Shown piece after piece: positions 2,132 through 25,743 of a stretch of 32,167 bases of DNA. The stretch comes from a candidate division WOR-3 bacterium. GTDB taxonomy: Bacteria > SDB-A. The stretch is from the NCBI GenBank assembly GCA_016926475.1, contig JAFGON010000004.1, positions 1 to 32,167 on the forward strand. Direction: 5' to 3'. A program made the position numbers and the translations under genes. Under the pieces are notes generated by a model. The model was given only the letters and a program-made list of their open reading frames with translations. It did no database searches and was not told the origin of the DNA. How positions within the stretch are numbered: the stretch's first letter is position 1; each line of letters opens with the position of its first letter.

Positions 2132-2776
2132 CTATCTGAAATAAAACGACGCCTCAAAAATATCTCCGTGAAGATTTGTCTCCCGCAGTTTTCCCCTTCC
2201 GTCTGACTTCCAATCAATCGTGAATTCTTCGCCTTCAATATCCAAAACAGACAGCGCTTCAGTTTTATCTACTATTAGAATCGCGTACAGAGTGTTTTTG
2301 AAAATGATGAAGACTCTCTCTTCCCTAACTTCGACTGTCTCTCCCGGAGCAAATCCCACACAAAGAGCAAAAAGGAGGTCTCCAAACGGAATTATCGGAT
2401 CGTATTCATTTTGGGTCCAGCTCCTGTAATCACTCCACTGTCCGCTTTCGTCGATCCAATGCACTTCGAGTGAATCAAAAGATTTTCTGGCTTTAAAAAT
2501 TGGAACACCGAAAGGACCCGAGATGTTTATCGCCCACAGAGAATCTTCGACATTGTGAATAATAGCGAAATCGCCGTTCATGTCTCCGTAAGACGAGTTC
2601 AAATTGACTATTCCTCTCCAAGATGAATCCGGCGCATCTGAAAATTGAATGGCATCACAAGCATCTTGATCTTCTTGCGAAACATGGTTCGTGTATTCTT
2701 TTCTTATAGAAGAGCAGCCGCTTGGAACCACAGAAAAAACAACCGAACAATACAGTGCGTAAAGAAAATGTTTCAT
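2132..2776 (-). CDS. Lipoprotein with a probable LolB/LolA-like fold
   Basis: This is a 214-residue protein with an N-terminal hydrophobic stretch ending in a lipobox-like VPSGC, so it is probably a lipid-anchored envelope protein. After the signal it is rich in alternating beta-strand segments of the type seen in the LolA/LolB superfamily and related domains (for example MNGDFAIIHNVEDSLWAINI and LRETNLHGDIFEASFYF). The resemblance is by pattern only and no catalytic motif is visible. Its ATG overlaps the stop of the upstream propeller lipoprotein (ATGA, 4 bp), making it the last gene of a tightly coupled minus-strand operon. If it is LolB-like, it could receive lipoproteins at the outer membrane, complementing the lolA gene at 28465. 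That is an inference, and a general envelope lipoprotein is equally possible. Confidence 0.7.
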   Translation of the reverse strand: MKHFLYALYCSVVFSVVPSGCSSIRKEYTNHVSQEDQDACDAIQFSDAPDSSWRGIVNLNSSYGDMNGDFAIIHNVEDSLWAINISGPFGVPIFKARKSFDSLEVHWIDESGQWSDYRSWTQNEYDPIIPFGDLLFALCVGFAPGETVEVREERVFIIFKNTLYAILIVDKTEALSVLDIEGEEFTIDWKSDGRGKLRETNLHGDIFEASFYFR

Positions 2777-3771
2777 TGTAGACCTTCATTTTTTATAAGC
2801 CAAAGATAACCCTTGGGAATCTGCATTGCGTGGCTCACCAAGATCAGTTGGCCATAGACGGAAACCTTCTCCGCGGGTGAAGATTCTTCGCAGTAAGCCG
2901 CAAGGTCTCCATTTTTGTCGTAAACTTTCAAACCCTTGACATCACAGGCTACATATACGAAATCACCCGACAATTCGACGTCAAACGCGGAGATTCCATT
3001 TACGGCTTTTAAAAGCTTACCTCTTTCTTCCTCTTTCAGACCGTAAATCAAGAGCCCGTCGTTCTCGGCGGCGATAAACAGTTTTTCACCGTCGCTCGCA
3101 ATGCCCGCGATTCCTGAAAGATTCTCGATAGTAAAGGCAAGCTCCCCCTTTTCGAAGACACATACGCTTTTTGTGTCCCAAAGTCCCGCGAAGATAAAAT
3201 CGCCGGCAGTCAAAACGTGAGAAACACTCCCTTCGCATCGCATGCTGTCCGTCAGAGAGTATGAGAATGCGCTTCCGATGGAGTTTCTCTTGTGAAAACA
3301 CAGGACGCCCCTCTCTCCACAGGCGCAATATAAGTCATCTCCGTGAGAGCAGGCATCAAAAAACACGGTGTTGGTATCTTGGGTGGTCACTCTCCCAACC
3401 GCTTCGAACCCCTCCCTTTTCTCCACCAAAAGAATTCCCTGAATTCCCTCTACCACCAAAAAAATCCCCTCAGAATATTTTATATCTCGAACAAAATATT
3501 TCTCTCGTATCAAATAGCCTCTATCCGTCAAAAAAAGTGTGTCTTCAAAAGTCCATTCGTATCCGAAAAGCGTCTGTTTCGAAAGAGCGTCAAAAGCCGC
3601 TAAAAAATTGTTGGGTCCAGAAGCGACAGAAGTGCAAGTTCCTATCAGACTGTCAACTACAAAAAGTTTCCTCGGATTTGCAACGGTTCCAGAAACACTT
3701 TCAGACGGCGAACAAGAAAGGCCGACAAGAAAAAATATGAAAATTGCCTTGTTCAGAACAAATCTATTCAT
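2773..3771 (-). CDS. Lipoprotein with beta-propeller-like (LVIVD/WD-type) repeats
   Basis: This is a 332-residue protein with a signal peptide ending in VGLSC, a good lipobox with predicted Cys20. The mature part consists of recurring units of about 40-45 residues with a G-[ILV]-hydrophobic-hydrophobic pattern, such as IASDGEKLFIAAENDGLLIYG and VELSGDFVYVACDVKGLKVYDKNG. This resembles LVIVD or seven-bladed propeller repeats. Such proteins usually act as envelope scaffolds or ligand-binding platforms, as BamB does in Gram-negatives, but I see nothing identifying a specific partner. It overlaps the 3' end of the glycosyltransferase gene by 8 bp and the start of the downstream lipoprotein gene by 4 bp, so translation is probably coupled. 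The function is unassigned. Confidence 0.75.
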   Translation of the reverse strand: MNRFVLNKAIFIFFLVGLSCSPSESVSGTVANPRKLFVVDSLIGTCTSVASGPNNFLAAFDALSKQTLFGYEWTFEDTLFLTDRGYLIREKYFVRDIKYSEGIFLVVEGIQGILLVEKREGFEAVGRVTTQDTNTVFFDACSHGDDLYCACGERGVLCFHKRNSIGSAFSYSLTDSMRCEGSVSHVLTAGDFIFAGLWDTKSVCVFEKGELAFTIENLSGIAGIASDGEKLFIAAENDGLLIYGLKEEERGKLLKAVNGISAFDVELSGDFVYVACDVKGLKVYDKNGDLAAYCEESSPAEKVSVYGQLILVSHAMQIPKGYLWLIKNEGLQ

Positions 3772-5182
3772 TTTCAGATCCCCCTATGATTTCTTTTCTC
3801 CTTTTATAGGCGTTAAGCCTCGCTTGATTCTTCGCGTTCAGTTTGAAAATTTCGCTTCTTAGGACATCGCTGTTGCCGGGATGTCTTCTGTAATGATAGA
3901 GAACTTCGCGTACTCTTTTCAGCCTGTACTTTTCGGTCACTTTCAAAACCATGTCGTAGTCTTCTCCGTAATCGCAAAAATCGCCTTCGTCGAAATAACC
4001 CATCTCTTCTATCGCCGATTTTCTCCAAACTCTCACAGCGCCTGCTCCGTCAACTCTCAGAATGTTGTTGACAGAATATTCTTCGTGCCTGACGACTCCC
4101 ATCTCATTCAAAACATTCCCATCACAGTCTATAAGGTCGTAATAACTGACTGCCAGTCCGGCGGTTAAGTCAGATTTCAGGGCTTTGATCATAAGTCGCA
4201 ACGTCGAAGGGGAATACAAATCATCAGAATCGAGTTGAGCGATGAACTGCCCCCTCGCTTTTTTAACTCCTAGATTAAGAGCTTTTGCGATTCTGTTGTC
4301 ATCCCTTCTGAAGACTCTTATTCTAGGATCTTTTTGAGACAGTTCTAACGCGGTTTCATAGGTTCGGTCATCAGAAGCGTTGTCTACGACAATAAGTTCC
4401 CATTCTTTTGTATCCTGCTCGAGCACGCTCGAGACAGCCGATTTGAGAAAATCCGCTCTGTTGTGCACTGGAATGACAACACTCACCGTCACATCACAGG
4501 CTTCTTCGGCTCTCTTGGAAGCAGTCTTCCTGGGCTCTTCGTAAAAATAGACTCCCTGCCGAACGAGAAAATTCATGAAGCATTTCTCAATTTGCTCTTT
4601 TTGACTGTCGCTGTAGTAAAGATAGCTGAATCCGCCGTATTCACCCTGTGAAGGGAAAAATAGTTTGTCTTTAATGGAATTTTTTCTTTCGACCGTTTCA
4701 AAGGAATACATCGCCTCCGGAATCCTCACAATGTCCCTTTTTCCCCAAAATTTCAAATGCATGTCGTAATTGAAAGATTGGGGAAGATTTTCGTCAAATA
4801 AATTCTCCTCCATAACGAATGATTTTCTGTATATTCTGAGCTTTCCGAAATTCCATCTTTCTGTCCAATCCCCGTTGTAATCCAAGAGAGCGGTCTTTTT
4901 CCCATCGCATGAGCAGTAATCGCTGTAAAAAATACCCGCGTTCTCCTTGTCGGGGCTGAATTTTTTTAAAATCCCTGCGGCTTCTCTCTTGATTTGAACT
5001 CCTGGAACAACAACGGTGAAAAATTCTCCTTTTAGGCCGGGTAAAACTCTGTTCAACGCTTCAGGTCCGTAATCCTCTGAAAACAATATTTCAGAATTTT
5101 TGGATGTTTTTACGCAGTCCAAGATGCATCTGTGCTCTTTTGACTTTTCAAGAGTTCTGGCCAAGATGAAACTCAAAAGCAT
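3764..5182 (-). CDS. Family 2 glycosyltransferase with a degenerate second GT-A domain at its N-terminus
   Basis: The 472-residue protein has a canonical GT2 domain from about residue 231. It shows VSVVIPVHNRADFL, the nucleotide-binding IVVDNASDD, the metal-binding DSD at 318-320 (QLDSDD) and the catalytic-base motif ED at 407-408 (YGEDYD). Residues about 10-170 align by eye with the same domain. ALNRVLPGLKGEFF pairs with ALNLGVKKARGQFI, AGIFYSDYCSCDG with AGLAVSYYDLIDCDG, LRIYRKS with VRVWRKS, and FNYDMHLK with EDYDMVLK. In this first copy DSD has become VPG and ED has become FN, and the first Rossmann strand is missing. It is therefore probably a non-catalytic or substrate-binding module. 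No signal peptide or convincing membrane span is present, so it is likely cytoplasmic and membrane-peripheral. It starts one base after the lytic transglycosylase stop. Donor and acceptor are unknown. Confidence 0.9.
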   Translation of the reverse strand: MLLSFILARTLEKSKEHRCILDCVKTSKNSEILFSEDYGPEALNRVLPGLKGEFFTVVVPGVQIKREAAGILKKFSPDKENAGIFYSDYCSCDGKKTALLDYNGDWTERWNFGKLRIYRKSFVMEENLFDENLPQSFNYDMHLKFWGKRDIVRIPEAMYSFETVERKNSIKDKLFFPSQGEYGGFSYLYYSDSQKEQIEKCFMNFLVRQGVYFYEEPRKTASKRAEEACDVTVSVVIPVHNRADFLKSAVSSVLEQDTKEWELIVVDNASDDRTYETALELSQKDPRIRVFRRDDNRIAKALNLGVKKARGQFIAQLDSDDLYSPSTLRLMIKALKSDLTAGLAVSYYDLIDCDGNVLNEMGVVRHEEYSVNNILRVDGAGAVRVWRKSAIEEMGYFDEGDFCDYGEDYDMVLKVTEKYRLKRVREVLYHYRRHPGNSDVLRSEIFKLNAKNQARLNAYKRRKEIIGGSENE

Positions 5183-5183
5183 G

Positions 5184-7343
5184 CTAAAACGTTCTCCTGT
5201 CTATTTTATCGTAGATCCAAGCCGCAGTGAGGACTTTTGGGACGTATGCTCTGGTTTCAGAAAACCCGATGTTTGAAATATACTCGTCTTCTCCTCCCTC
5301 GCAAATCCATTTTTTCGCGTTTCCGGGACCCGCGTTATACGCGGCAAGAGCGATATAAATTTTCCCGAAATAATGGAGCTGATCCGAAAGGTATTTAGAA
5401 CCAAGCCTAAGATTGTGATCCGGATGAGTAAGGTCAAATGAGTTCATGCCTATCGACGACGCAACGTAATTAGCTGTCGCGGGCATCAGCTGAGCCAACC
5501 CAACCGCTCCTGCCCAGGACCTGATTTCATTGTCGAAAAGACTTTCGGTTCTAACAAGCCCCTGCAGAACAGTCGTTTTCAAGGAGAAAACTTTCGCTGC
5601 ATTTTCAATCGACAGCCTGAAAGCTTGGGGATACAAAAGAAAAAAAAGGTCTGAAGGGCAGCTTTCCCTGAAATGGCTTTTGACGGACGAGGCCAAGACG
5701 ATTGCTTTGAACCTGTCAAGCCCTTGATCCGCGGTCTTAGACATCAAAAATTTTTCTCTCGGATTTGGATTTTCGATAGCGTCAAGTTCTTTCCTCGCCC
5801 AATCCCGCAGGCCAAAAGCGTAGAGATGCCTGGCTCTTTCACAGGATTCAATAGCTTCTGCGCTCAAGCTGAAATCGGAAAATACATCATCGGTTCCGTT
5901 GAGAAAATCAAGGTGCAGCGAAGCGCTGAAAGATCTCGATTCAGAGAGTTTGATCTCAGACCTCCGTGCGTAGTCGTCCATCGGCAAAAAAGAGCATATT
6001 TTAATAAAGACGTTATTTGCCTGATCAGATTCCATACTCAGGGCAGTCGAATAGACAAGGGACACATTTCTCTCGCCAACGGGTAGTTCGAGAACGTATT
6101 TTTCAAATTCAGCTTTCTCTTCATCGTCAAGTATTTCTAAAAGCATTTCGGCAGCTTTGGGAATCATATCGTTTGAATGAGGCGACTCGAGAACAGATCT
6201 CAGCAGACCTATCGCTTCCGTTCTGCGGCCATTTTTTATTTTTAATTCAGCTAAAAAGAAAAGCGCGTCATCGTATAAATTACCTGAATTAAACTCTCTG
6301 ATGAAATCCGACCATACCCGTTCTTCTTCCGTTTCATTTCCTGTAGACCTATAGCAAAGCCCGAGGTTGTACAAGGCGTTTCTCCTGTTGTTTCCAGAAG
6401 AAGCTCTTTCAAGATAAACCACTGCAGTAGAGTATTTTGAGAGCTTTCTCAGAGCCCTGCCCATCAAAAGAGAAGCTTCCAAGTTTCCCGGATGAGATTC
6501 CAAAAATGTCTCGAGCAAATCGACTATCTTTTCGTATTTTCTCGATTTCTCGAAAGCGCGAGCCAAAGCGACGGTGTCCGCTTTTCCCAGTTCGATCAAC
6601 ATAGACCAAGCAGTGTCGATTACCTCTCCCGAAGATGAAAGGAGTTCATTCAAATTCGTTATCGCTTCATCCGTATCACCTACAGACAAAAATATTCTCG
6701 CCGCCAAGAGCTTTTCGCTTTGGTCGAAGTCGGCGGCTCTCAAATGTTCGACAGCTAAACCCCTCTCGCCTCTTGACAGATAGACTCGAGAAAGATTTTT
6801 GGAAACATCAGAATTCAGAATGGATTTGTATTTGTCGCAAAAATCTTCTCCGAGTTCAATCGCCGAAACGGTGTCACCTGTCTGTAAAAGGGATAAAAAA
6901 ACAAAATAGTCTGAATAATCCTCTAAAACGCGGGGTGTTTTTCCCGAAGACATCGATTTTCTGAACATATCCAGTGCGACTTTGAAGTCGTTCTTTTCAA
7001 ACGCCTGAACTGCACGAGCGAAATCATCGTAACTAAACATGAAGTTGTTGTCATATCTGTACAATGGTCCGGCTATTTCTACTGGAATGGAATTTTTATC
7101 CGCGATTTTCCTCGCCCAAAAAAGACTGCTGTCAATAGCGTTCATAGAAAAATAAATTCTAGTTGCCGAGATACAGTACTCTGGAGAAGCCCTGTCAAAT
7201 TCGTTTACGTAAGACAGAAGATCTCTCGCCAGAAGCACATCACCTTTTTGAAGTGCTATTTCAATTTCCCTGATATCAGATCCAAACAAAACTCCTGAAG
7301 ACAAAGCTGAAGACAACAACAAAACCGAACAGATTTTCTCCAT
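5184..7343 (-). CDS. Slt70-like periplasmic lytic transglycosylase with TPR-type superhelix
   Basis: This is a 719-residue protein with a signal peptide (MEKICSVLLLSSALSSG). A long helical-repeat region resembling TPRs covers about residues 25-560, and a C-terminal SLT domain covers about 570-715. The SLT signatures are present: catalytic Glu600 in VRTES, GAVGLAQLMPATA and ALAAYNAGPGN. Enzymes of this type cleave the MurNAc-GlcNAc bond of peptidoglycan non-hydrolytically, leaving 1,6-anhydroMurNAc. The helical superhelix normally wraps the glycan strand. The length is close to that of Slt70-type proteins (about 620-720). A good Shine-Dalgarno (AAGGGGA) precedes the ATG, 10 bp after the SpoIID-domain gene, and the stop is one base before the glycosyltransferase ATG. 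The operon places it with two other wall-trimming enzymes. Confidence 0.94.
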   Translation of the reverse strand: MEKICSVLLLSSALSSGVLFGSDIREIEIALQKGDVLLARDLLSYVNEFDRASPEYCISATRIYFSMNAIDSSLFWARKIADKNSIPVEIAGPLYRYDNNFMFSYDDFARAVQAFEKNDFKVALDMFRKSMSSGKTPRVLEDYSDYFVFLSLLQTGDTVSAIELGEDFCDKYKSILNSDVSKNLSRVYLSRGERGLAVEHLRAADFDQSEKLLAARIFLSVGDTDEAITNLNELLSSSGEVIDTAWSMLIELGKADTVALARAFEKSRKYEKIVDLLETFLESHPGNLEASLLMGRALRKLSKYSTAVVYLERASSGNNRRNALYNLGLCYRSTGNETEEERVWSDFIREFNSGNLYDDALFFLAELKIKNGRRTEAIGLLRSVLESPHSNDMIPKAAEMLLEILDDEEKAEFEKYVLELPVGERNVSLVYSTALSMESDQANNVFIKICSFLPMDDYARRSEIKLSESRSFSASLHLDFLNGTDDVFSDFSLSAEAIESCERARHLYAFGLRDWARKELDAIENPNPREKFLMSKTADQGLDRFKAIVLASSVKSHFRESCPSDLFFLLYPQAFRLSIENAAKVFSLKTTVLQGLVRTESLFDNEIRSWAGAVGLAQLMPATANYVASSIGMNSFDLTHPDHNLRLGSKYLSDQLHYFGKIYIALAAYNAGPGNAKKWICEGGEDEYISNIGFSETRAYVPKVLTAAWIYDKIDRRTF

Positions 7344-7353
7344 ATTAATCCCC

Positions 7354-8685
7354 TTATTTCAGGAGAGGGGGTTTCCCTTTGCAATCCTGGGGCCCGTCTC
7401 CTGTCGCTCCATGGATGCACCTTTTCAACTCATAACAATTCGCTTTTTCGTAGCAAGGTCTCTTTTCAGTCCATTTTTTTTCGTAAAATTCTTTAAAACT
7501 GTAAAGTTTGGCTACGCGGCAACCTGGAAAATAGTGCTTTAAAATACTCTTGGGGTCAAACCCTTTTTCAGCGAGGGTCATCGCTCCTATCTGACACATT
7601 CCAACTCCATGCCCCCAACCGGCTCCTTTGCATACCCAATGGTCTTTATAGTCTTTTAAATAAAACGAGGCTGAAGGCAATGTGTCAGCTGAAAGTGCTT
7701 TTCTTATGTTCAACTCACCTTTCACTAAACATTTGCCGATTTTTCCCGTAAATTCAATCTCGGTGACCCTGAAAGAAGATGTGATCTTTTTTGGCGCTGC
7801 AGACACTATTTCTCCGATATCAAAACCTAATTTCAAAAGGTTGTCAGACACCGCTTTTTTTGACACTGTCCTTTCCCACCGATAATAATCTTTGGAATAT
7901 GAGAACTCTTCGGGTTTATAGTGAGCAGGCGAACATAACGCCTCGTGAAAATCGCTGTTGACGTATTCTTCAATTCTCTCAAAACAGACCGTTGACTCCA
8001 GACAATCGTATTTTCCAGGCATGTAAGGATGCGGAACTTCTTCGGTCCAAGCGTCTTTGAATTCAGCTGTTATGCCTCCGCATATTTTAGAAAATCTGCA
8101 GTCGGCAATTTTATTTTCAAACAGCAGAAACTCACCTGCCGTTTCGGACACCGCTTTGATTATCTTTTCATTTTCCCGCAGGACACCCCTGTAATCTTGG
8201 CAGTGATCGTCTGCGCAGAGATGAAAATTTTCTTTACTGTGCAGTTTTTTTGACATGCTGAAAGCTGAGGATCTCGCCAGTATTGCTTGGACTTTTAAAA
8301 ATTCAAGGGAGCATTGTGATTTCATTTCCGAACCGACCACCGACACGATATAGTGTTCAAATGGCAATTCATTGACGAGGACAAGCCCCTGCGGTGTCGA
8401 TAAGACCTCGATTATACCCCGAAACGCGTGGTCTTCCGTATGTTCCCAGTGAAATGTACCTCCTACGGTTATTCCCCTTACGACCGTCAGGGAGCCTCTT
8501 ATCCTCAGGGGAGACGGAAAAGTTCTTCCATCGGAATAAATATCATCGCCGGATTTTCTGAACATAAAATCACCTAAAAAACCTTCTTCGGATTTTTCGA
8601 CAAAAGAGAGTAAAACTTCCGTTTTGGGACCGTCTACTTTCACCCTTATCAGATTTCTCTTTATCTTTTCGCTGTCATCACCCAA
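7354..8685 (-). CDS. SpoIID/LytB-domain protein, putative peptidoglycan lytic transglycosylase, without signal peptide
   Basis: The 443-residue protein carries the SpoIID domain. The putative catalytic Glu120 lies in YIVSVVGSEMKSQC, followed by KVQAILARS. C157 and C162 lie in HLCADDHCQDYRG, where SpoIID proteins bind zinc, then CGGITAEFKDAW and GWGHGVGMCQIGA (about 356-368). Characterised SpoIID proteins cleave glycan strands that have lost their stem peptides. The TTG start at 8685 is supported by a GGAGG (8691-8695) five bases upstream, and the domain begins almost at once, leaving no room for a signal peptide. The C-terminal tail (about 405-443) is an unusual Cys-rich extension with C411, C417, C423 and C435. 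The gene follows the S66 peptidase gene in the same frame with only a TAG between them. The family call is firm; the cellular location is unclear. Confidence 0.92.
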   Translation of the reverse strand: MGDDSEKIKRNLIRVKVDGPKTEVLLSFVEKSEEGFLGDFMFRKSGDDIYSDGRTFPSPLRIRGSLTVVRGITVGGTFHWEHTEDHAFRGIIEVLSTPQGLVLVNELPFEHYIVSVVGSEMKSQCSLEFLKVQAILARSSAFSMSKKLHSKENFHLCADDHCQDYRGVLRENEKIIKAVSETAGEFLLFENKIADCRFSKICGGITAEFKDAWTEEVPHPYMPGKYDCLESTVCFERIEEYVNSDFHEALCSPAHYKPEEFSYSKDYYRWERTVSKKAVSDNLLKLGFDIGEIVSAAPKKITSSFRVTEIEFTGKIGKCLVKGELNIRKALSADTLPSASFYLKDYKDHWVCKGAGWGHGVGMCQIGAMTLAEKGFDPKSILKHYFPGCRVAKLYSFKEFYEKKWTEKRPCYEKANCYELKRCIHGATGDGPQDCKGKPPLLK

Positions 8686-8695
8686 CTAAACCTCC
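8685..8695 (-). promoter_or_regulatory. Ribosome binding site that decides the TTG start of the SpoIID-domain gene
   Basis: Read on the minus strand the junction is GTGGAGG TT TAG TTG. The GGAGG (8695-8691) lies inside the last codons of the S66 peptidase gene. It is followed by five bases including the S66 stop codon TAG (8688-8686), and then TTG (8685-8683). This spacing supports TTG as a genuine start and predicts translational coupling. Confidence 0.75.
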
Positions 8696-9597
8696 ACGGC
8701 TTTCTCAAGAAACTCCAACGTGCCGAGTTTAGAATCCAAACGAACTCTCAACCCGAGCGGAAGGGTTATCTTATTTTTTATATGTCCAAAATCCGCTCCA
8801 ACGACAACAGGGCATTTCAAAACAGACAGTCTCTCCGCGACAACTTCTTCGCATGAAGGCGGTTGCTCGGGACAAGAAGCGAACCTACCCACCAAAACGC
8901 CTTTCACTCCCTCGAATTTCCCCGCGGATAAAAGATGGGTGAGAATCCTGTCTATTCTGTAAGGTGATTCACCTGTGTCTTCGAAAGCAAGAATTTTACC
9001 CCGTGAATCGAATTCATACTTGGTTTTCAAAGATGTCTGCAGCAACGAAAGACATCCTCCCGTCAATTCCCCTTCAGCAACGCCTTCAATCAAGCCTCTC
9101 CATCCTTCAGGAAATTTGTGTATGCCCATATCATCTCCGGAAGCCAGTTTTATGAGGAATTCAAAAGAAAAATCTGAAGTCAAATCAGAGAAATCAGGGG
9201 ACAGCATCGGTCCGTAAAAATTGATCATACCTTTTTTGAGCAATATCAGTGATATTACCGTTAAATCAGAAAATCCGCAGAAAATACCGTCGAAACTATC
9301 GACCTCTTTGGCTGAAATTATTTCCTGAGCTATTCTCGTACAACCATATCCTCCTCTTATTCCCATGATCATTCCGGCGGATTTATCTCTGAAAGCCAGG
9401 ATCAATTCTTTTTTTCTCTGTTTATCAGATCCCGACAAATACCAAGAATTCTCCCGGAAGTTGTACGTTTTCACTTCGAAACCTTTACCCGAGAAAAAAT
9501 TTACCGCGTTTGCGAACCTTTCTTTATCCTTCAGCGGCCCCGCAGGAAGAACGGGGACAATGAGAGGTCTTTTAGAAATTGACAGGGGTTTTTTCAT
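8686..9597 (-). CDS. S66-family muramoyl-tetrapeptide (L,D-)carboxypeptidase, LdcA/MccF-like
   Basis: The 303-residue protein matches the S66 family in length and motifs. These are GIRGGYGCTRI (79-89), the nucleophile Ser110 in CGFSDLT, the FYGPM segment, the Glu206 region in LAFEDTGESPYRIDR, and His272 in GHIKNKITLPLG. A complete Ser-Glu-His triad is therefore present. LdcA enzymes remove the terminal D-Ala from tetrapeptides during peptidoglycan recycling, while MccF relatives cleave related amide bonds. No signal peptide is seen, consistent with a cytoplasmic enzyme. The ATG lies 6 bp from a strong hairpin (9603-9630) and lacks an obvious Shine-Dalgarno, so expression may depend on that structure. 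The gene heads a run of six tightly spaced genes. Confidence 0.93.
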   Translation of the reverse strand: MKKPLSISKRPLIVPVLPAGPLKDKERFANAVNFFSGKGFEVKTYNFRENSWYLSGSDKQRKKELILAFRDKSAGMIMGIRGGYGCTRIAQEIISAKEVDSFDGIFCGFSDLTVISLILLKKGMINFYGPMLSPDFSDLTSDFSFEFLIKLASGDDMGIHKFPEGWRGLIEGVAEGELTGGCLSLLQTSLKTKYEFDSRGKILAFEDTGESPYRIDRILTHLLSAGKFEGVKGVLVGRFASCPEQPPSCEEVVAERLSVLKCPVVVGADFGHIKNKITLPLGLRVRLDSKLGTLEFLEKAVEV

Positions 9598-9602
9598 TTA
9601 GC

Positions 9603-9630
9603 AAAAAAGAGCGGGTGACCGCTCTTTTTT
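9603..9630. terminator. Bidirectional Rho-independent terminator or attenuator hairpin
   Basis: AAAAAAGAGCGG, loop GTGA, then CCGCTCTTTTTT form a perfect 12-bp stem with A and T tracts on both sides, so it can work in either direction. It lies downstream of the small lipoprotein gene (stop at 9648) on the minus strand. It also sits immediately upstream of the S66 peptidase ATG (9597), where it could act as an attenuator. Confidence 0.85.
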
Positions 9631-9647: not shown

Positions 9648-10100
9648 TTAGTTCGTAAGAGTTACGCTCACTTTCGTTTCACAGTCCCAGTTTTTTTCAT
9701 ACCCATAAGCGTCCTCTCCTGAGATTCGTATAGACAAATACAATTGTTCGGTTGGATTTGCCGTCATGTAGAGGAATGCTTCGGCCGTGGGCACCGGATA
9801 AGAATTTATGACCGTTTTTTCTTCTCCTGAGGGTATGCTGACGTCTATGTATCTTGTTATGTCATTGACACCGGTTATTGAAGAACCGTCATTTTTCCTG
9901 AATCTGAATTCGACTTTTTTTGCCCTTGCATCTACGTCGTTTACTACGTCGACCGTCACCGAAATTGGGGAACTGGTAGTATCAACCAAAAATATTTCAG
10001 GGTTTACATCTTTGATTACGACTTCAGGAGTTGACACCATTTTACCGCAACCGATGCCAAAAAGAGCCATAAAAATTACGCCTGTATAAAATCTGAGCAT
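9648..10100 (-). CDS. Small lipoprotein of unknown function
   Basis: The frame could open at 10154, but that position is inside the -35 box of a strong promoter. The ATG at 10100 has a strong Shine-Dalgarno (AAGGAGGT) 4 bases upstream and begins a clean lipoprotein signal, MLRFYTGVIFMALFGIGCG, with the lipobox Cys at about residue 18. The resulting protein is 150 residues. The mature part is beta-rich with conserved-looking stretches such as ISVTVDVVNDVDARAKKVEFRFRK and LYLSIRISGEDAYGYEKNW. It could be a single Ig-like or fibronectin-like domain, but I do not recognise a family. It is monocistronic: it has its own promoter and ends 18 bp before a perfect terminator hairpin. Confidence 0.72.
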   Translation of the reverse strand: MLRFYTGVIFMALFGIGCGKMVSTPEVVIKDVNPEIFLVDTTSSPISVTVDVVNDVDARAKKVEFRFRKNDGSSITGVNDITRYIDVSIPSGEEKTVINSYPVPTAEAFLYMTANPTEQLYLSIRISGEDAYGYEKNWDCETKVSVTLTN

Positions 10101-10125: not shown

Positions 10126-10154
10126 ATTATAATACTTTCGTATAATTTTTTCAA
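10126..10154 (-). promoter_or_regulatory. Sigma-70-type promoter for the small lipoprotein gene
   Basis: On the minus strand there is a -35 TTGAAA (10154-10149), a 17-bp spacer and a consensus -10 TATAAT (10131-10126), about 20 bp upstream of the Shine-Dalgarno. This placement rules out translation starting at 10154. Confidence 0.8.
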
Positions 10155-10542: not shown

Positions 10543-11565
10543 ATGGCGAAAAAGGGAATAGGCGTAGATATAGGGTCGAGTTCGATAAAAATAGTCGAAC
10601 TCGCGAACATAAACAAAAAACCTTCACTTGTCAAATACGGGATAATTGAACTTCCCTCCGATGTAATAGTAGACAGTCACATTATGGACCCGCTTCTCAT
10701 AACGGAAACTATACAGAAAATTATGGAAAGGGAGATGATAAAACCCGGAAAGGTCAACATAGGCCTTCAGGGAAGATCCATAATGGTAAAAAAAATCGAA
10801 ACAGAGCTTATGAACGACAACGAATACGCGCATCAAGTCAGATTTGACGCTCAAAACAATTTCCCGTTTGATTTTGAAGACATTGACATAAGTCTTGATT
10901 TTCACGTGGTCGATAGAAACAAACAAGAAAAGAAAATGGATGTCCTCCTGGTTGCCGCTAAAACAGAGGGCATAGACCAGCAAATAGACCCTCTGTCGGA
11001 AAGCGGCATGAAAGTAAACGTCGTGGATTACAACTTGTTTGCCCTTCAAAACTGCTACGAGAAGACAAAAGGATCCATTGACTCCGATACTTTAGCTTTT
11101 GTCCACGTAGGCGCTGAATGGTTTTTGATGAGCATTGTTGAAGACGGAAAACCTCTGTTGGCAAGAGATTTGAATTCTCCCGGAACCCTCAAGATAATGC
11201 ACCAGATAATGAGGAATCTCGGTGTATCGGAAGATGAGGCAAAAAAAGTTTTGAGAAACGAAACCCCTCCTCCCCCCGATCAACTGACAGCGGTCACGAA
11301 TATTTACAACGATTTTATAAACGAAGTAGCCGATAATGTGTCAAAGCAAGAAGATTCTTCAAACAAAAAAATCAAGAAAATTGTAGTCTCGGGAGGCGGA
11401 GTTCTGGTGCCGAGGTTAAAGCAGGGCTTAGAAGAAATCTTGAAAAAACCCGTTGAGATATTCAACCCGTTTCACGAAATTAACACTCCCGACCATTACA
11501 GGGAAAAGCTCGAGACCGAAGGGCCGATTCTTTCCATAGCCGCCGGGCTCGCGATGAGAGGATAA
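10543..11565 (+). CDS. pilM: Type IV pilus assembly ATPase-fold protein PilM
   Basis: This 340-residue protein has the actin/FtsA-like fold typical of PilM. The phosphate-1 loop is GVDIGSSSIKIVEL (about residues 6-19). The SHS2-like insertion includes VNIGLQGRSIMVKKIE, the Q-rich NEYAHQVRFDAQNNFPF segment follows, and a C-terminal nucleotide-binding glycine stretch is KKIVVSGGGVLVPRL. PilM is cytoplasmic and recruits the N-terminus of PilN, linking the motor ATPases to the inner-membrane alignment complex. A strong GGAGGAGG precedes the ATG. The order pilM-N-O-P-Q that follows is the standard one, which makes the call firm. Confidence 0.96.
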   Translation: MAKKGIGVDIGSSSIKIVELANINKKPSLVKYGIIELPSDVIVDSHIMDPLLITETIQKIMEREMIKPGKVNIGLQGRSIMVKKIETELMNDNEYAHQVRFDAQNNFPFDFEDIDISLDFHVVDRNKQEKKMDVLLVAAKTEGIDQQIDPLSESGMKVNVVDYNLFALQNCYEKTKGSIDSDTLAFVHVGAEWFLMSIVEDGKPLLARDLNSPGTLKIMHQIMRNLGVSEDEAKKVLRNETPPPPDQLTAVTNIYNDFINEVADNVSKQEDSSNKKIKKIVVSGGGVLVPRLKQGLEEILKKPVEIFNPFHEINTPDHYREKLETEGPILSIAAGLAMRG

Positions 11566-11587
11566 AAACTAACTTGAGAGGTTTAAT

Positions 11588-12202
11588 ATGATAGAAGTAA
11601 ATCTTCTCCGACAGAGGGCGATGAAGAAGAGGCCCAAGGCTCAAAAGGGGCCATCGGGCGGAGGCGGCGGAAATATAATCCCCGTCATCCTTGCCTTCAT
11701 TGTCGTCCTGATTATTCTGCCGTTGGTTTTTTTATTTCAGCAGATGAGAATTAACTCAGTGAAAAACAGGACAAAACAAGTTCAGACCGACATTTCAAGG
11801 ATGGCCGAAGAACTCGAAGCCAGAAGAGAAGCCCAAAAAACCCTTGAAGGGCTTCAAGAACAGGAAAGACTCCTCAGAGAAAGGATCACCATTATAGCCT
11901 CGCTGAATTCAGGCCGGACCGCTTACGCTCACCTCCTGCAGGAAATTTCCGACAGGTTTCCGCAATATACTTGGATTTCATCCCTAACCGAGTCTGGAGG
12001 AGCGTTGACAATATCGGGGTTGACACTCTACGACGTCGTTCTCCCTCACCTTTGGGACGGCCTTGAAGAGTCTCCATACATCAACAACATTCAAATAGAA
12101 AATTGGTCTCTGTCGAGTATGAACGAGCAGACTGTCGTGTCTTTTGTTCTGACCGCAAGTTTACTTAAAACAACTTTGATTCAAAGTGGAGGCGAACAAT
12201 GA
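11588..12202 (+). CDS. pilN: Type IV pilus inner-membrane protein PilN
   Basis: This is a 204-residue bitopic protein. It begins with MIEVNLLRQRA, the short cytoplasmic NLL-type motif that PilM binds. A basic, Gly-rich linker follows, then one transmembrane helix (about 30-51), a coiled coil (about 55-100) and a periplasmic ferredoxin-like domain. The length and layout match PilN. Its last four bases overlap the start of pilO (ATGA), as expected for two proteins that heterodimerise. The Gly-rich stretch before the membrane (PSGGGGGN) is somewhat unusual. Confidence 0.92.
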   Translation: MIEVNLLRQRAMKKRPKAQKGPSGGGGGNIIPVILAFIVVLIILPLVFLFQQMRINSVKNRTKQVQTDISRMAEELEARREAQKTLEGLQEQERLLRERITIIASLNSGRTAYAHLLQEISDRFPQYTWISSLTESGGALTISGLTLYDVVLPHLWDGLEESPYINNIQIENWSLSSMNEQTVVSFVLTASLLKTTLIQSGGEQ

Positions 12203-12786
12203 ACAACAGATTGCTCGCAGCTCTGATTTTTTTGCTCGGTGTAGTCGGCGCTATCTCCCTTTTCTTCTACATGCAGATGAACCCTCTTAAATCCGCCAAC
12301 AACAAACTCAAGCAGCAATTGGAAGTAAAGAGAGCTTATGAGGATTCTCTCAGACAAGTAGTCGACGTAAGCGAGAAAATTGAGTACTACAAAGCTTTAC
12401 TCAAAAGCATGGAAGGACTCCTCGCCAAAGCCGAAGCCATGGTTCCTAAAGAAGCTGACAGAAACGACATTTGCGCTTTGCTCATAGAACTCTCTCACCA
12501 GGCTAATGTAACGATTTTGTCTTCAACACCCTCGGTCCCCGTATCCTCCAACGATGGCACTGGTAGTTTCATGATTCCCGTCGCCTTGAACATAGAGGGC
12601 ACCTACCAGACGCTCGGGAAATTTCTCGAATTTCTAGCCAACAACCAGCGCATACTTAAACTTTCTTCTCTATCAATAACGCCTTCGACGGTGAAAGAAG
12701 GTTTTATAAACGTTTCTCTTGTAGTTAACGCTTACTATCTGCCCGTCGGAGCGGCTCAAACTCAATCACCTGATCAATGGAATTAG
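12199..12786 (+). CDS. pilO: Type IV pilus inner-membrane protein PilO
   Basis: This is a 195-residue bitopic protein with a transmembrane helix at about residues 7-25 and a periplasmic coiled coil at about 28-80. A ferredoxin-like domain contains the typical PilO stretch VALNIEGTYQTLGKFLEFLANNQRILKL. It forms the inner-membrane alignment complex with PilN and contacts PilP. It overlaps pilN by 4 bp. Sequence similarity within PilO families is usually low, so position in the operon contributes strongly to the assignment. Confidence 0.92.
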   Translation: MNNRLLAALIFLLGVVGAISLFFYMQMNPLKSANNKLKQQLEVKRAYEDSLRQVVDVSEKIEYYKALLKSMEGLLAKAEAMVPKEADRNDICALLIELSHQANVTILSSTPSVPVSSNDGTGSFMIPVALNIEGTYQTLGKFLEFLANNQRILKLSSLSITPSTVKEGFINVSLVVNAYYLPVGAAQTQSPDQWN

Positions 12787-12802
12787 AGGAAAGGTGGCAG
12801 AT

Positions 12803-13339
12803 ATGAAAAAGCTCACAATTTTTTTTCTTGTTTTGTCAGCCGCTTTCCTTACAGGCTGTAAAAACAAAGGCGACGTGATATCGGGGACCATTGGTCAAGC
12901 GGCTGAAGTCGTATCCAATGGTTCCTCGGTCAGGATTCAACAGAACACCGCAAATCCGGCCGATTCGGCGACGGAATTAGGAACGATGGGCAACCAGATC
13001 TCGACACAGGAAATTGAGCAGATGCTCGCAACGGAAGAATTTTATTTTACCGCTTCGAGGGACCCTTTTAACTCTCCTCTCTCCTCGCTTGAAAAATCGA
13101 ATCTATTGAATCCACAGGAAGGTATTTTGGAAGGCGTCATATCAGGGCCAAGGGGTCTTCTCGCGATAATAAGAAGCACTGACGGCAAGCATTGGCTTCT
13201 TAGAAAAGGAGACAGGGTCAGCGGAGGAAACGTCGCTGAAATTACGCCTGAAGCTGTGACCTTTGTTCTCGAACATTATGGGCAAATATCAACAGTTATC
13301 ATAAGACGTGAAAATTCAATAAATGGGGAGGAACAGTGA
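12803..13339 (+). CDS. pilP: Type IV pilus lipoprotein PilP
   Basis: A GTG at 12794 would add three residues. I prefer the ATG at 12803 because AGGTGG lies 5-6 bases upstream and the protein then starts with a standard lipoprotein signal (MKKLTIFFLVLSAAFLTGC, lipobox LTGC). The unstructured linker is followed by a PilP-type beta domain (about 85-170) with ASRDPFNSPL, the family's RDPF motif, and GVISGPRGLLAIIRSTDGKHWLLRKGD. PilP bridges the PilNO complex to the periplasmic domains of the secretin. Its 3' end overlaps the GTG start of pilQ by 4 bp. Confidence 0.9.
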   Translation: MKKLTIFFLVLSAAFLTGCKNKGDVISGTIGQAAEVVSNGSSVRIQQNTANPADSATELGTMGNQISTQEIEQMLATEEFYFTASRDPFNSPLSSLEKSNLLNPQEGILEGVISGPRGLLAIIRSTDGKHWLLRKGDRVSGGNVAEITPEAVTFVLEHYGQISTVIIRRENSINGEEQ

Positions 13340-14973
13340 AGAAATGTTTTTTGACCTCCGTTTTATTGTTGTCAGCACTTTCATTTTTGTCGGCGTACAA
13401 TATAAACGAAATCGAGATATCTCCGGCTTATTCCGGAGCCCAGATAGCGATTGGAACAGACAGGCTGGGCTCATACAGGGATTATCAGTCCGGGGACAAC
13501 ATCGTGATAGATTTCTACGGAGCGACAAACAATCTGAGGGCTGCAGCATTTCCCTACGTCGACCGAGGTCCTGTGGTCGGAATAGGAATAGCGGATTTCT
13601 CTTCGAGCGACATTATCAGGGTTGTCATCGAGACCAGCGGATTGAAAAGTTACAAGGTGTCCAGCTCCGGATCCAACCTAATCATCAACGTAGAACCCGT
13701 TGTGTCTTCAGGCAGTTTCAGCGTCTGGAGAGCGTCCGAGAGCATACAGAATCTCGAATACTCCGATTTTTCCTTCGGAGGGCTTCCTAGCGGATCGTTT
13801 GTTGGATCAGGCGGACTGATCAGCATGAACCTCGACCAGGCAGACATCACAACAGTCCTGAGGGCTATTGCGGATTACAGCGGAAGGGACATTATCGCCG
13901 CCCCCACGATAGCAGGCACTGTGACTTTGAGGCTTAACAACGTCACTTGGTGGCAAGCTCTTCAGGCTATATGCCATTCCCATGGATTGGGAATTTCAGA
14001 GGAAAATGGAATACTCCTCGTCGGAACACAGGGCGATTTCGACACATGGAGACAGGCTCAGGAGAGCGCGGAGAGGGTCATATACAGAGTCTACACACTT
14101 CAGTATTCCACCCCTTCCGAGGTCAGCGCGTCCATTTCTTCCATGATTTCCGAAAAAGGTTCGATTCTTCTGGACTTGAGAACAAATTCTGTGATCGTAA
14201 GCGACATTGAATCACGCCAATCTGCCATAAAAGACATGATAGACCTACTCGACAAACCGACACCCCAGGTTGAAATAGTCGCTAAAATCGTCGACATGAA
14301 CATGGACGCCTCCAGGAGCCTGGGAATAAACTGGAGGGTATTAGGACTTGGAATATTCGATGAAAACGAAATACAATTTGGTGACACAAGTCAGACCTAT
14401 GGCTCTGGTTTGATCAATTTGAGCTTCGGGCAAATTTACGATTACGCCCAAATTAATGCCAGTTTAGTAGCTATGGAGTCAAAAGGCGACGCGAAAACTA
14501 TAGCAAGCCCGCACGTCACGGTCTTGGACAACAACCCGGCTTCAATCCTCGGCGGAAAGAGGTTCGGCGTCCCGGTCAGAGGCTCAGACGGTTCGGTGAC
14601 AATACAGTTCTACGACGCCGGCACGAGGCTCGAAGTGACTCCCCACGTCAACGCCAACGACGAGATTACACTTGAAATAAGGACAGAACTCTCGGACGTC
14701 GACGTAGCTTCGGTTCAGGAGGGCAAGCCGATAATAACAACACATGAAGCTTCTACAAACCAGAGAGTGATGGACGGAGAGACGGTCGTCCTCGGCGGTT
14801 TCGTCACGGAATCGGAAAACCAAAACGAGAGCGGAATCCCGATTCTAAAGAGCATTCCGATAATCGGATGGCTTTTCAAAACGAGGAGCACATCTACAAC
14901 CCAGCGTGAAGTCCTAATATTCATAACCCCTCACATCATCAGACCTCACTTGACACCTGCCACTATTCAGTAG
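13336..14973 (+). CDS. pilQ: Type IV pilus outer-membrane secretin PilQ
   Basis: This is a 545-residue protein starting at GTG 13336, with GGGGAGG a few bases upstream. The signal peptide (MKKCFLTSVLLLSALSFLSA) is followed by a single AMIN-like beta domain (about 25-125), a secretin N0/STN domain (MNLDQADITTVLRAIADYSG, about 160-230) and an N1 domain (VYTLQYSTPSEVSASISSM, about 250-315). The C-terminal secretin domain runs to the end and includes VEIVAKIVDMN and the VxGRVxxPG-equivalent region ending ILKSIPIIGWLFKTR. It forms the multimeric outer-membrane pore for the pilus. It is shorter than proteobacterial PilQ (about 700), because it has one AMIN domain rather than two. A strong terminator follows. 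Confidence 0.95.
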   Translation: MKKCFLTSVLLLSALSFLSAYNINEIEISPAYSGAQIAIGTDRLGSYRDYQSGDNIVIDFYGATNNLRAAAFPYVDRGPVVGIGIADFSSSDIIRVVIETSGLKSYKVSSSGSNLIINVEPVVSSGSFSVWRASESIQNLEYSDFSFGGLPSGSFVGSGGLISMNLDQADITTVLRAIADYSGRDIIAAPTIAGTVTLRLNNVTWWQALQAICHSHGLGISEENGILLVGTQGDFDTWRQAQESAERVIYRVYTLQYSTPSEVSASISSMISEKGSILLDLRTNSVIVSDIESRQSAIKDMIDLLDKPTPQVEIVAKIVDMNMDASRSLGINWRVLGLGIFDENEIQFGDTSQTYGSGLINLSFGQIYDYAQINASLVAMESKGDAKTIASPHVTVLDNNPASILGGKRFGVPVRGSDGSVTIQFYDAGTRLEVTPHVNANDEITLEIRTELSDVDVASVQEGKPIITTHEASTNQRVMDGETVVLGGFVTESENQNESGIPILKSIPIIGWLFKTRSTSTTQREVLIFITPHIIRPHLTPATIQ

Positions 14974-14988
14974 TTTTTCTTTAGCCCG

Positions 14989-15015
14989 AAAAAGAGGGGT
15001 CCGTCCCCTCTTTTT
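14989..15015 (+). terminator. Rho-independent terminator of the pilMNOPQ operon
   Basis: AAAAAGAGGGG, loop TCCGT, then CCCCTCTTTTT form an 11-bp stem followed by a long T run. It begins 16 bp after the pilQ stop. Confidence 0.9.
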
Positions 15016-15048
15016 TTTTTTCTCATTTCCCCTTGAAATCGGTTTGTT

Positions 15049-15951
15049 TTGCTGTTAAAAGCATTTATGGCATTGTTTTTTTATATTATGCTGATTTCCA
15101 CAAACAGCGTCATGGTTGGTTTTTTTTCGAATTTAGACCCGACCCCATACATAAACACAGGTCAAATACTCTTTTTGCCCGACACGGTTTACGCCCATCA
15201 GAAAATATTTATCTCTCCCTATTTCATCGATTTCGCCAAAATAAAACTCTATTGCCACGGGCATGAAACTTCACCGGAAATAGATGAAATTTCAAGCACA
15301 CTGAGTATTCCGGCTTTTCCGGACGACACCTCTAACATCGTGTTTGAAATCACCGGCGAATTCGCTTATCAGAGGGACACCGTGACAATTATATCAGAGA
15401 GGTGGCTGGAGTTCTTCCTCGACCCGGACCTGCAATTTTCGATATTGTGGGAAGGAGCAAGACCAATTACCTACTCTCTCATCTCCAGCGGCAGATCTCA
15501 ATCACCAACTAGCGCCGCTCACACAAAGATTTTTGACAAAAAACCGAGTTCTGAATTCTACGACGGAGGTCTGATGAGATGGTGGATGTCGATTCAGAGG
15601 ACCCACAACGTCAAAGTGATAACCGACAGCGGAGAAGAAAGGTTTTTTCCAGTTCTCGAAAACGGAACCCACGCGCCTCTTTCTGGAACTTACCACTTCG
15701 TAGGGAATCAAGCCAGCCACGGCTGCATCAGAAACCCATTGGCGAAAGTGTATTACGATATACTCGAAGTTGGAGACAGAGTTGAAATGCACTACCGAAA
15801 TTCAGGAAACTCCTACAGACACGAAAGAATCAATCGTGCTTACAGGTATTTAAACTGGGACGCGCTCCTGGAAGTAGATTCCTCTTTGTCGAGGTACGTG
15901 GAAGATGCTAAACTTAGAATTTCAAAAGAGTTCGGTTTGAACAACCGATAA
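15049..15951 (+). CDS. L,D-transpeptidase (YkuD-domain) family protein
   Basis: The 300-residue protein has an N-terminal hydrophobic segment (signal peptide or anchor, about 5-20) and a beta-rich N-terminal domain. The YkuD active-site motif near the C-terminus is H208 in NGTHAPLSG and S223-H-G-C226-I-R in ASHGCIRNPL, with Cys226 as the nucleophile. YkuD enzymes make 3-3 peptidoglycan cross-links or attach lipoproteins to peptidoglycan. The first usable start is TTG 15049. The ATG at 15067 gives a shorter leader without the basic residue at position 4, so TTG is preferred, although neither has a good Shine-Dalgarno. It is followed by lpoB after 12 bp and may share an operon with it. Confidence 0.88.
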   Translation: MLLKAFMALFFYIMLISTNSVMVGFFSNLDPTPYINTGQILFLPDTVYAHQKIFISPYFIDFAKIKLYCHGHETSPEIDEISSTLSIPAFPDDTSNIVFEITGEFAYQRDTVTIISERWLEFFLDPDLQFSILWEGARPITYSLISSGRSQSPTSAAHTKIFDKKPSSEFYDGGLMRWWMSIQRTHNVKVITDSGEERFFPVLENGTHAPLSGTYHFVGNQASHGCIRNPLAKVYYDILEVGDRVEMHYRNSGNSYRHERINRAYRYLNWDALLEVDSSLSRYVEDAKLRISKEFGLNNR

Positions 15952-23405: not shown

Positions 23406-24470
23406 ATGAAAAAGAACATAGCGATCATATCTGGAACCAGGCCGAATATAGTGAAAATTGCCCCTTTGTTGAAACGCCACACCAACAGCTTCAGTGATAT
23501 TTTCAGCGTTGAACTATTCCACACAGGACAGCACTATGATTTCTCAATGCACGGCGCTTTTTTCGAGGACTTTTCTCTTCCTCCTCCTGAACACGTCTTT
23601 GAAGTCAAGGACTTGAAAGTTTCTGCTCAGATAGGGACGATAATGGTGAAACTTGAAAGGGCTTTTGAGAAAAAACGTCCAGACCTCGCTATAGTTGTCG
23701 GCGACGTCAATTCGACTTTGGCAGCTGCGATAACATCATCGAAAATGGGTATAACCATCGCCCATCTCGAAGCCGGTGTCCGTTCTTTCGACATGACCAT
23801 GCCGGAAGAACAGAACAGAGTCGTCGTCGACTCCCTGTCAGATATCCTGCTCTCACCAACAAAGACAGCTGTTGAAAACCTCAAAAACCAGGGTAAAGAC
23901 ATAAGCTCGATAAAGTACGTCGGAAACATTCTCGCCGAAGCTCTTTATTTCGTAAATGGAAAAAAGTCAGCAAGAGAAAATTTCGGCTTGATGACCCTCC
24001 ACAGGCCTTTTAACGTCGACAATTCAAAAAACCTGGAGTCCTTGATAACTGCTTTAGGAGAAAAATTAAAATTCCCGATAATATTTCCGGCTCATCCCAG
24101 AACCTTGAAAAATCTTTCAAAAATCAAACTCCCTCCGGGCATAAAAGTCGAACAACCCATGGCCTATTCCGAATTCATCTCTGCCCTTTCCAGATGCTCT
24201 TTCGTAATCACCGATTCCGGAGGCATCCAGACAGAAGCGACTATATTAAAGACTCCTTGCGTCACTTTAAGAAAAAACTCCGAGTGGCCTGAGACAGTAG
24301 ATTACGGGACAAACGTGTTACTCGAAGATCCGTCACTAATATGCTATGCGGTTGAAACAGCTGTTGAAAAAACAAAAAAAGCGACACATCCCTATCTCTG
24401 GGACAAAGACGTATCGCTGAGAATCTGGAATGAAATCTCCGTTTATCTAAACATAGACCTTATTGACTGA
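23406..24470 (+). CDS. wecB: UDP-N-acetylglucosamine 2-epimerase (non-hydrolysing)
   Basis: The 354-residue length matches WecB. Motifs are IISGTRPNIVKIAPLL, FHTGQHYDFSM, VVGDVNSTLAAA, IAHLEAGVRSFDMTMPEEQNR, the MTLHRP region, ITDSGGIQTEA and LRKNSEWPET (usually LRxxTEWPE). The enzyme converts UDP-GlcNAc into UDP-ManNAc for surface polysaccharide or glycolipid synthesis. The ATG follows the rsmE stop directly (TAGATG) without its own Shine-Dalgarno, so translation is probably coupled. Small departures from the family consensus (GTRPN for GTRPE, EEQNR for EEINR) keep the key acidic residues, so activity is likely. The 3' end overlaps the convergent ankyrin gene by 11 bp. Confidence 0.94.
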   Translation: MKKNIAIISGTRPNIVKIAPLLKRHTNSFSDIFSVELFHTGQHYDFSMHGAFFEDFSLPPPEHVFEVKDLKVSAQIGTIMVKLERAFEKKRPDLAIVVGDVNSTLAAAITSSKMGITIAHLEAGVRSFDMTMPEEQNRVVVDSLSDILLSPTKTAVENLKNQGKDISSIKYVGNILAEALYFVNGKKSARENFGLMTLHRPFNVDNSKNLESLITALGEKLKFPIIFPAHPRTLKNLSKIKLPPGIKVEQPMAYSEFISALSRCSFVITDSGGIQTEATILKTPCVTLRKNSEWPETVDYGTNVLLEDPSLICYAVETAVEKTKKATHPYLWDKDVSLRIWNEISVYLNIDLID

Positions 24471-25743
24471 CGCCGCCTCTGTTTTTGAGCAGTTCCTGTA
24501 TCTCGACATGGCCGGCCTGGTTCGCGTAAAACAAAGGAGTGTGATTTTCATCATTTTCCGGATTCACTTGCGCTCCCGCTGAAATAAGTGAGTTGGCTAT
24601 TTCAATGTATCCGTATTGAGAGGCATAGTGAAGAGGTGTCCAGCCTCTGGAGTTCTTAATGTTCAAATCGGCACCTCTTGTTACCAATGTCTGGGCTGTT
24701 TCGATGAAACCCTCGGACACCGCCAAATGAATTGGAGCCACGCCTGAATCCCCTCCAGCTATACAGTTTACATCAGAACCCGCTTCAATAAGCTTTATTA
24801 GAATATTTGTTTCCCCGTTGTATGCAGACAAATGAAGAGGCGTCCAATAACCTACGGTGACTTCATCTATCGAAGTTTTTCCTTCTGCCGTCAAGTTCGC
24901 CCCGGATGAAATTAGAAGATCGACTATATCTGAAAAACCTTCCCTCGAAGCGTAATGAAGAGCCGTCCAGCCATTTTCCTTTTCGGCGTTTACATCAGCG
25001 CCTGTCGATAGAAGCTCTTTCACGACCAGAAAATGTCCGTAATTGCATGCCATATGAAGGGGCGTGACGCCGGCAATATCTGAAATGTCCACAGAAGCCC
25101 CTGCCGAGAGGAGTTCCTGAACTACTATGAGGTTTCCCCATTCTGAAGCGGCAAAAAGAGGAGTTTCTCCGTATTCGTTTCTCGAATTGATGCTCGCACC
25201 TCTATCCAACAATAGCTCGACAACTTCAAAAAAATCTTCTCGTGATGCGATGTGCAGCGGAGTGTCTCCGGAATCTCCCCACACGCGTGAATTGACATCC
25301 GCGCCGTTGTCGAGGAGTATTTTTGACACTTCATATCTTCCGTTGTAAGCGGCAAGGTGAAGGGGAATCCAATAGCCGGCGGTGTAGTCGTCCACCGATG
25401 TTTTACCCCTTAAAGTAACATCAGCACCGTTTTTTAACAGCATTTGAACTATTTCTGTGTACCCTTCTCTCGTAGCGTAGTGAAGAGGAGTCCAGTTCCA
25501 TTCGTCTCCGGAATTCACGTCAGCGCCGGCTTTTATCAACTCTTCGGCGATGGATGCTTCTCCCTGATCACAGGCTTTTCTCAGGGCGTAGTTGTACCTT
25601 TCCTTACCTTCGGGATAGGAAGAAACGTCTTCAAGGCTGTTTATCCAGTTGGTCGTCTCTTGAGTTATACTCGCGCTGCATGAAAACAAAAACAAAATAA
25701 CCATGGATAAAGAAATCCATTTTAAAAAAGCACGACGCTTCAT
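24460..25743 (-). CDS. Ankyrin-repeat lipoprotein
   Basis: The frame could start at 25779, but that position is inside the predicted -10 box. The ATG at 25743 follows AAAGGAGG and gives 427 residues, with a lipoprotein signal (MKRRAFLKWISLSMVILFLFSC, Cys22). Eleven ankyrin repeats span about residue 50 to the end, recognisable by TPLHxA and LLxxGADVN. Repeats 2-6 and 7-11 form two similar blocks. The first repeat of each block carries the same nine-residue insertion, GKTS[VI]D[DE]xTxGY, before its second helix pair. Ankyrin proteins mediate protein-protein contact, and the lipid anchor puts this one in the periplasm or on the outer membrane. The partner is unknown. It converges on wecB with an 11-bp overlap. 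Confidence 0.92.
   Translation of the reverse strand: MKRRAFLKWISLSMVILFLFSCSASITQETTNWINSLEDVSSYPEGKERYNYALRKACDQGEASIAEELIKAGADVNSGDEWNWTPLHYATREGYTEIVQMLLKNGADVTLRGKTSVDDYTAGYWIPLHLAAYNGRYEVSKILLDNGADVNSRVWGDSGDTPLHIASREDFFEVVELLLDRGASINSRNEYGETPLFAASEWGNLIVVQELLSAGASVDISDIAGVTPLHMACNYGHFLVVKELLSTGADVNAEKENGWTALHYASREGFSDIVDLLISSGANLTAEGKTSIDEVTVGYWTPLHLSAYNGETNILIKLIEAGSDVNCIAGGDSGVAPIHLAVSEGFIETAQTLVTRGADLNIKNSRGWTPLHYASQYGYIEIANSLISAGAQVNPENDENHTPLFYANQAGHVEIQELLKNRGGVSQ

Follow-up and report, generated by a model that had tools for sequence, protein, structure and literature searches.

A SpoIID subfamily without export signals and its tandem glycosyltransferase partner in a six-gene block of a candidate division WOR-3 bacterium

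The stretch of DNA analyzed here (the window) comprises 32,167 nt of contig JAFGON010000004.1 from a candidate division WOR-3 bacterium. Between positions 2132 and 9597 six open reading frames were confirmed on the minus strand, separated by intergenic gaps of 0, 10, 1, -8 and -4 bp, exactly the ORFs and spacings given in a preliminary description of the sequence. Domain searches assigned them to the S66, SpoIID, TPR-SLT and GT2 families, followed by two lipoprotein-type proteins. Elsewhere in the window, PilM and secretin genes (type IV pilus-like) and then a YkuD L,D-transpeptidase-like protein are located at 10543-15951 (+), a protein made largely of ankyrin repeats with many Pfam Ank matches at 24460-25779 (-), and a 512-aa ORF, carrying GreA/GreB domains at its end and approximately 320 extra N-terminal residues, at 30589-32127 (-).

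The gene order of the block is kept in all four genomes of the family, namely that of the window and three relatives (L036-L038), and is preserved across two genera, with genes that abut or overlap. Synteny of the S66, SpoIID, SLT and GT2 genes in related genomes, which the preliminary description had suggested looking for, is therefore present in the three relatives; beyond the family the six-gene combination was not found. Among the sampled genomes, kin closer than domain level amount to these four only, window included, and the synteny is family-wide but narrow. All four genomes also share the flanks of the block, with RR-HD and DegT genes pointing towards it on one side and lipoC, on the same strand as the block, on the other. 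In one relative (G003) around 3.4 kb of extra DNA separates the two lipoprotein genes. A conserved, coupled operon with peptidoglycan-type enzymes is thus supported.

Transcription of the block is less straightforward. An intrinsic-terminator-like hairpin with a T-run (9603..9630, minus strand; fold z -4.2) abuts the ATG of the S66 gene and recurs in two of the three relatives (G001 and G002), while it is not visible in G003. Because the hairpin lies directly before this ATG, a promoter belonging to the block itself is not evident. The small lipoprotein gene lipoC is located upstream (9648..10100, minus strand), with its ATG at 10100 behind AAAGGAGG, and is preceded by a promoter-like TTGAAA-17-TATAAT sequence (10126..10154, minus strand) with 11/12 matches. 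This is the sole good promoter-like match just upstream on the strand of the block, in a region where such matches total the chance level. lipoC is possibly co-transcribed with the six genes, and from the hairpin and the promoter-like site we infer that transcripts may reach the block across a leaky terminator, a possible form of read-through control.

The first gene of the block (8686..9597, minus strand) encodes an S66 L,D-carboxypeptidase of the LdcA/MccF family (PF02016/PF17676). Both domains are present, the PDB match is 6uuk (3.5e-33), and S110, E206 and H272, which from knowledge of the family we take to be the Ser-Glu-His triad, are invariant in the alignment. The Slt70-like lytic transglycosylase (5184..7343, minus strand) has a signal peptide, a TPR-rich N-terminal part and a C-terminal PF01464 domain, with a catalytic-type Glu in an RTES motif at approximately aa 600. 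Neither lipoprotein of the block gave a Pfam match above the cut-off. The putative lipoprotein at 2773..3771 (minus strand) shows weak, below cut-off similarity to LVIVD repeats (beta-propeller-like). The last one (2132..2776, minus strand) is a putative lipoprotein with a LolB-like fold, Foldseek placing LolB as the top matches (best E 6e-7) from a model with a pLDDT of only 52; the lipobox of the window copy is not canonical. A wide link between S66 and SpoIID was considered and rejected, as the two genes are close only in the family; elsewhere a single S66 copy, that of G015, has SpoIID at a distance of about 6 kb. Linkage of S66 and SLT is essentially limited to the family.

The SpoIID-domain protein (7354..8685, minus strand) scores 177 bits with TIGR02669 (cut-off 83) and 80 bits with PF08486 (cut-off 23). 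Its TTG start codon, with GGAGG upstream, directly follows an in-frame stop, so that a concealed signal peptide would have no room in frame. The stop codon of S66 and the start of SpoIID overlap in G003. No export signal, membrane anchor or hydrophobic N-terminus, features typical of the studied members, was found in the window protein. A tree built with 63 SpoIID proteins of the sampled genomes places it in a well-supported clade (n=23, support 100/99). A convincing signal peptide at the N-terminus is missing from all 23 members; the numeric signal cut was passed by L045, but solely through an internal stretch. Most SpoIID proteins outside the clade have a signal peptide, and in some of the nearest branches proteins of both kinds occur together. 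The catalytic Glu is kept in 23/23 clade members (E120 of the window protein, in an (S/A)EM motif) and aligns with 4RWR and 5I1T. The zinc ligands of C. difficile SpoIID are H134, C140, H145 and C146 (PMC6934232), to which H149, C157, H161 and C162 of the window protein correspond by alignment, the pairing of H149 with H134 coming from inspection; the clade retains these ligands. Additionally, D160 and K200 mark the clade, being found in all 23 members and in 0/40 of the other SpoIID proteins; as they lie in or beside conserved motifs, an altered choice of substrate is plausible. The four SpoIID proteins of the family have in common a Cys-rich C-terminal tail (7354-7456, minus strand; CYE..NCYEL..C..GDGP..C), and the SpoIID of L042 has a similar one (CFEFYNCY..TC).

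The presence of SpoIID in a diderm genome, which the preliminary description had pointed out, is by itself no surprise, since bacteria that do not sporulate are described as widely carrying the family (PMC6635528). Candidate roles in sporulation or engulfment found no support, and SpoIIP and SpoIIM are not among the six genes of the operon.

The localization calls were made from hydropathy and start codons, without SignalP. By these checks export signals are present at the N-termini of SLT and of both lipoproteins of the block, and no signal peptide is carried by S66, SpoIID or GT2, so that the products appear to be split between two compartments. With SLT exported and SpoIID and its clade devoid of export signals, SLT and SpoIID are probably in different compartments. 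This bears on the preliminary description, which had seen a single wall-remodelling pathway with two glycan-strand cleaving enzymes acting jointly on the wall. That view is only partly supported: the coupled operon and the peptidoglycan-type enzymes are borne out, but joint action of the two cleaving enzymes on the wall is not supported.

The GT2 gene (3764..5182, minus strand) encodes a tandem GT-A protein without a transmembrane segment, in which a degenerate N-terminal domain precedes a GT2 domain with QLDSDD and ED motifs. The PF00535 match is confined to the C-terminal half. Two GT-A-like domains are seen in a confident structure model (pLDDT 89.9), and the best structural match, which is also the top PDB sequence match, is the chondroitin polymerase K4CP. 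A DxD-type motif is absent from the first domain in all 18 sequences compared and present only in the second; a polymerase with two active sites is therefore unlikely. The earlier term 'pseudo-tandem GT2' thus proved apt.

The tandem GT2 is found in 18 of the 22 genomes with a clade SpoIID, and the 268 others yield 1 partial match (290 genomes searched with profile A5, which was built from 18 of its own 19 genome matches, these being recovered by construction). The clade genomes without it are G056, G083, G195 and G224. Ten further genomes, all inside the clade set, had already been found with A1, an earlier and narrower profile made from five sequences. The co-occurrence gives a Fisher p of ~7e-24, uncorrected for relatedness, and the 18 genomes span 13 families. 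The two genes lie 0.3-2.2 kb apart in four lineages, namely the family of the window, G004, G120 and G151/G289/G290; four linked families of 13 would be expected with a chance of ~1e-8 under random placement. In most lineages besides these four, GT2 and SpoIID are unlinked. It is the pairing of SpoIID with the tandem GT2 that recurs across lineages, and we propose that the two form a widely conserved core, for which the remaining genes are a family-specific setting.

In G151, G289 and G290 (the last from ORF order) the pair is part of an AmiA-like amidase-GT2-DUF4922-SpoIID run, and this four-gene run is present in all three sampled genomes of the phylum of G289. At L075 4990-9651, L076 987-5305 and L121 992-5307 the amidase, GT2, DUF4922 and SpoIID proteins of the run show no evident signal peptides. 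G120 has GT2-DUF4922-SpoIID. The DUF4922 family has weak Ap4A-phosphorylase similarity and was not detected in the genome of the window. A BadF/NagK-type kinase adjoins SpoIID in G131 and G268 and adjoins GT2 in G010; the protein next to SpoIID in G056 is sugar-kinase-like but more divergent. The amidase-like and NagK-like neighbors point to amino-sugar or peptidoglycan chemistry. Bacteroides presumably carry the GT2-DUF4922-SpoIID neighborhood as well, and the control genome of Bacteroides ihuae matches both PF16269 and PF08486.

Searches for GH3/NagZ, AnmK and an AmpG-type permease (TIGR00901) gave matches in 0/4 family genomes each, with the control genomes positive (five for the permease, E. 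coli among them). In G000 a weak BadF-family match adjoins an lpxK-like gene, so named from reading the sequence. The standard cytoplasmic salvage route was thus not found, suggesting that another importer and route are used or that the pair serves another glycan. With respect to other origins, a defence system was dismissed after PADLOC gave no match, and phage origin was likewise dismissed: SpoIID has no PHROG match, and the matches of SLT and GT2 to phage families are explained by common domains alone. For S66 there is one match, to a PHROG without an assigned function (phrog_6292, 8e-37).

The interpretation we lean towards, at somewhat less than an even chance, is cytoplasmic handling of peptidoglycan-derived glycans by an operon that would span two compartments. 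In the periplasm, SLT would trim glycan strands, and the two lipoproteins, one LolB-like and one propeller-like, would be located on the side of the outer membrane. Within the cytoplasm, S66 would take D-Ala off fragments or precursors that bear tetrapeptides, and peptide-poor MurNAc-GlcNAc oligosaccharides would be cut by the SpoIID variant. The tandem GT2 would act in this pathway by transferring a sugar, either to put released sugar to new use or to make the substrate of SpoIID. Leading to this interpretation are the gene order in four genomes, the clade without signals, D160/K200 beside the kept Glu and zinc ligands, the co-occurrence with GT2, the linkage in four lineages and the peptidoglycan-type neighbors. 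However, a glycosyltransferase is an odd member of a salvage pathway, AmpG-type permease, AnmK and GH3/NagZ are undetected in the family, and in most lineages outside the four linked ones the two genes lie apart. A further argument against a cytoplasmic location may be that, among the closest relatives of the clade, some proteins have signal peptides and others do not. A wider proposal, held more tentatively, is that the D160/K200 SpoIID subfamily and the tandem GT2 constitute a two-protein cytoplasmic glycan pathway of several deep bacterial lineages, in which GT2 would make or extend, and the SpoIID variant cut, an amino-sugar glycan, with the kinase, DUF4922 and amidase as accessories.

The main rival, which we consider unlikely, is a synthase-plus-lyase pair outside peptidoglycan, where GT2 builds a cytoplasmic or carrier-linked glycan that the SpoIID variant cuts and S66 and SLT are mere family-specific neighbors. 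Such a pair would fit the near-obligate co-occurrence of SpoIID and GT2 set against the family-limited linkage of S66 and SLT, the resemblance of GT2 to a glycan polymerase, the altered specificity suggested by diagnostic residues near conserved SpoIID motifs, and the DUF4922 gene between the two in some genomes. It is at odds with the neighbors and the S66/SLT setting, which point to peptidoglycan, and with the first GT domain lacking DxD, which makes a two-site polymerase improbable. If SpoIID were instead exported by an unrecognized route to work with SLT, the block would serve ordinary periplasmic wall turnover, close to what the preliminary description proposed. It is true that known SpoIID enzymes have wall glycan as their substrate, in the periplasm or at the septum (PMC6635528, PMC6934232), that the operon also encodes an exported SLT and that SpoIID proteins related to the clade carry signal peptides, yet 23 clade proteins without one, the in-frame stop before the start codon in the window and a partner GT2 that is soluble and, by its sequence, cytoplasmic render this improbable. 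Quite improbable, too, is the absence of any functional unit, the block being simply a set of envelope genes crowded into a small genome and retained by a single family. The six-gene order is indeed seen only in the four family genomes, and the block has a terminator-like hairpin at its 5' end and no evident promoter of its own; against this stand the overlapping or abutting genes, the order kept across two genera and the three additional lineages in which SpoIID and GT2 are linked.

SpoIID in non-sporulating diderms is already known (PMC6635528); the clade without export signals and the GT2 partner appear to be new. The preliminary description had known of no named system with this combination of genes, and the open-access literature searched likewise yielded none, nor any description of a cytoplasmic SpoIID system, an export-signal-free SpoIID clade or the GT2 partner; as the search covered open-access papers only, this is weak evidence of absence. 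SpoIID enzymes have been studied as exported wall cutters, and if the interpretation of cytoplasmic glycan handling is true, the same fold works on glycans inside the cell. SpoIID and GT2 are a well-defined pair of genes that can be put to the test in several diderm lineages; the pair may explain wall-sugar handling in bacteria where NagZ, AnmK and AmpG are undetected.

Several known systems resemble parts of the block. The S66 protein is like LdcA and other S66 L,D-carboxypeptidases in both domains, in the Ser/Glu/His positions and in lacking a signal peptide; however, its gene directly adjoins that of SpoIID, and the canonical AmpG/NagZ/AnmK partners were not detected in the family. The last lipoprotein shares with LolB a predicted fold (from Foldseek with a low-pLDDT model), though no sequence match. 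Like K4CP, the GT2 protein has two GT-A-like domains in tandem, but here the DxD-type motif is in the second domain alone and identity is low (15-18%). At L047 7198-12931 a SpoIID gene lies directly before NamZ (Pfam), followed by NagZ- and AnmK-like genes (judged from sequence starts only). SpoIID is thus found beside peptidoglycan-salvage enzymes there also, yet that SpoIID has a signal peptide and falls outside the clade. With the SpoIID lytic transglycosylases of B. subtilis, C. difficile and Waddlia, the window protein shares the domain, the catalytic Glu and, at all four positions, the zinc ligands known from the C. difficile enzyme. It differs from these enzymes in having neither signal peptide nor anchor, in carrying D160 and K200, and in its GT2 partner, which takes the place of SpoIIP/SpoIIM.
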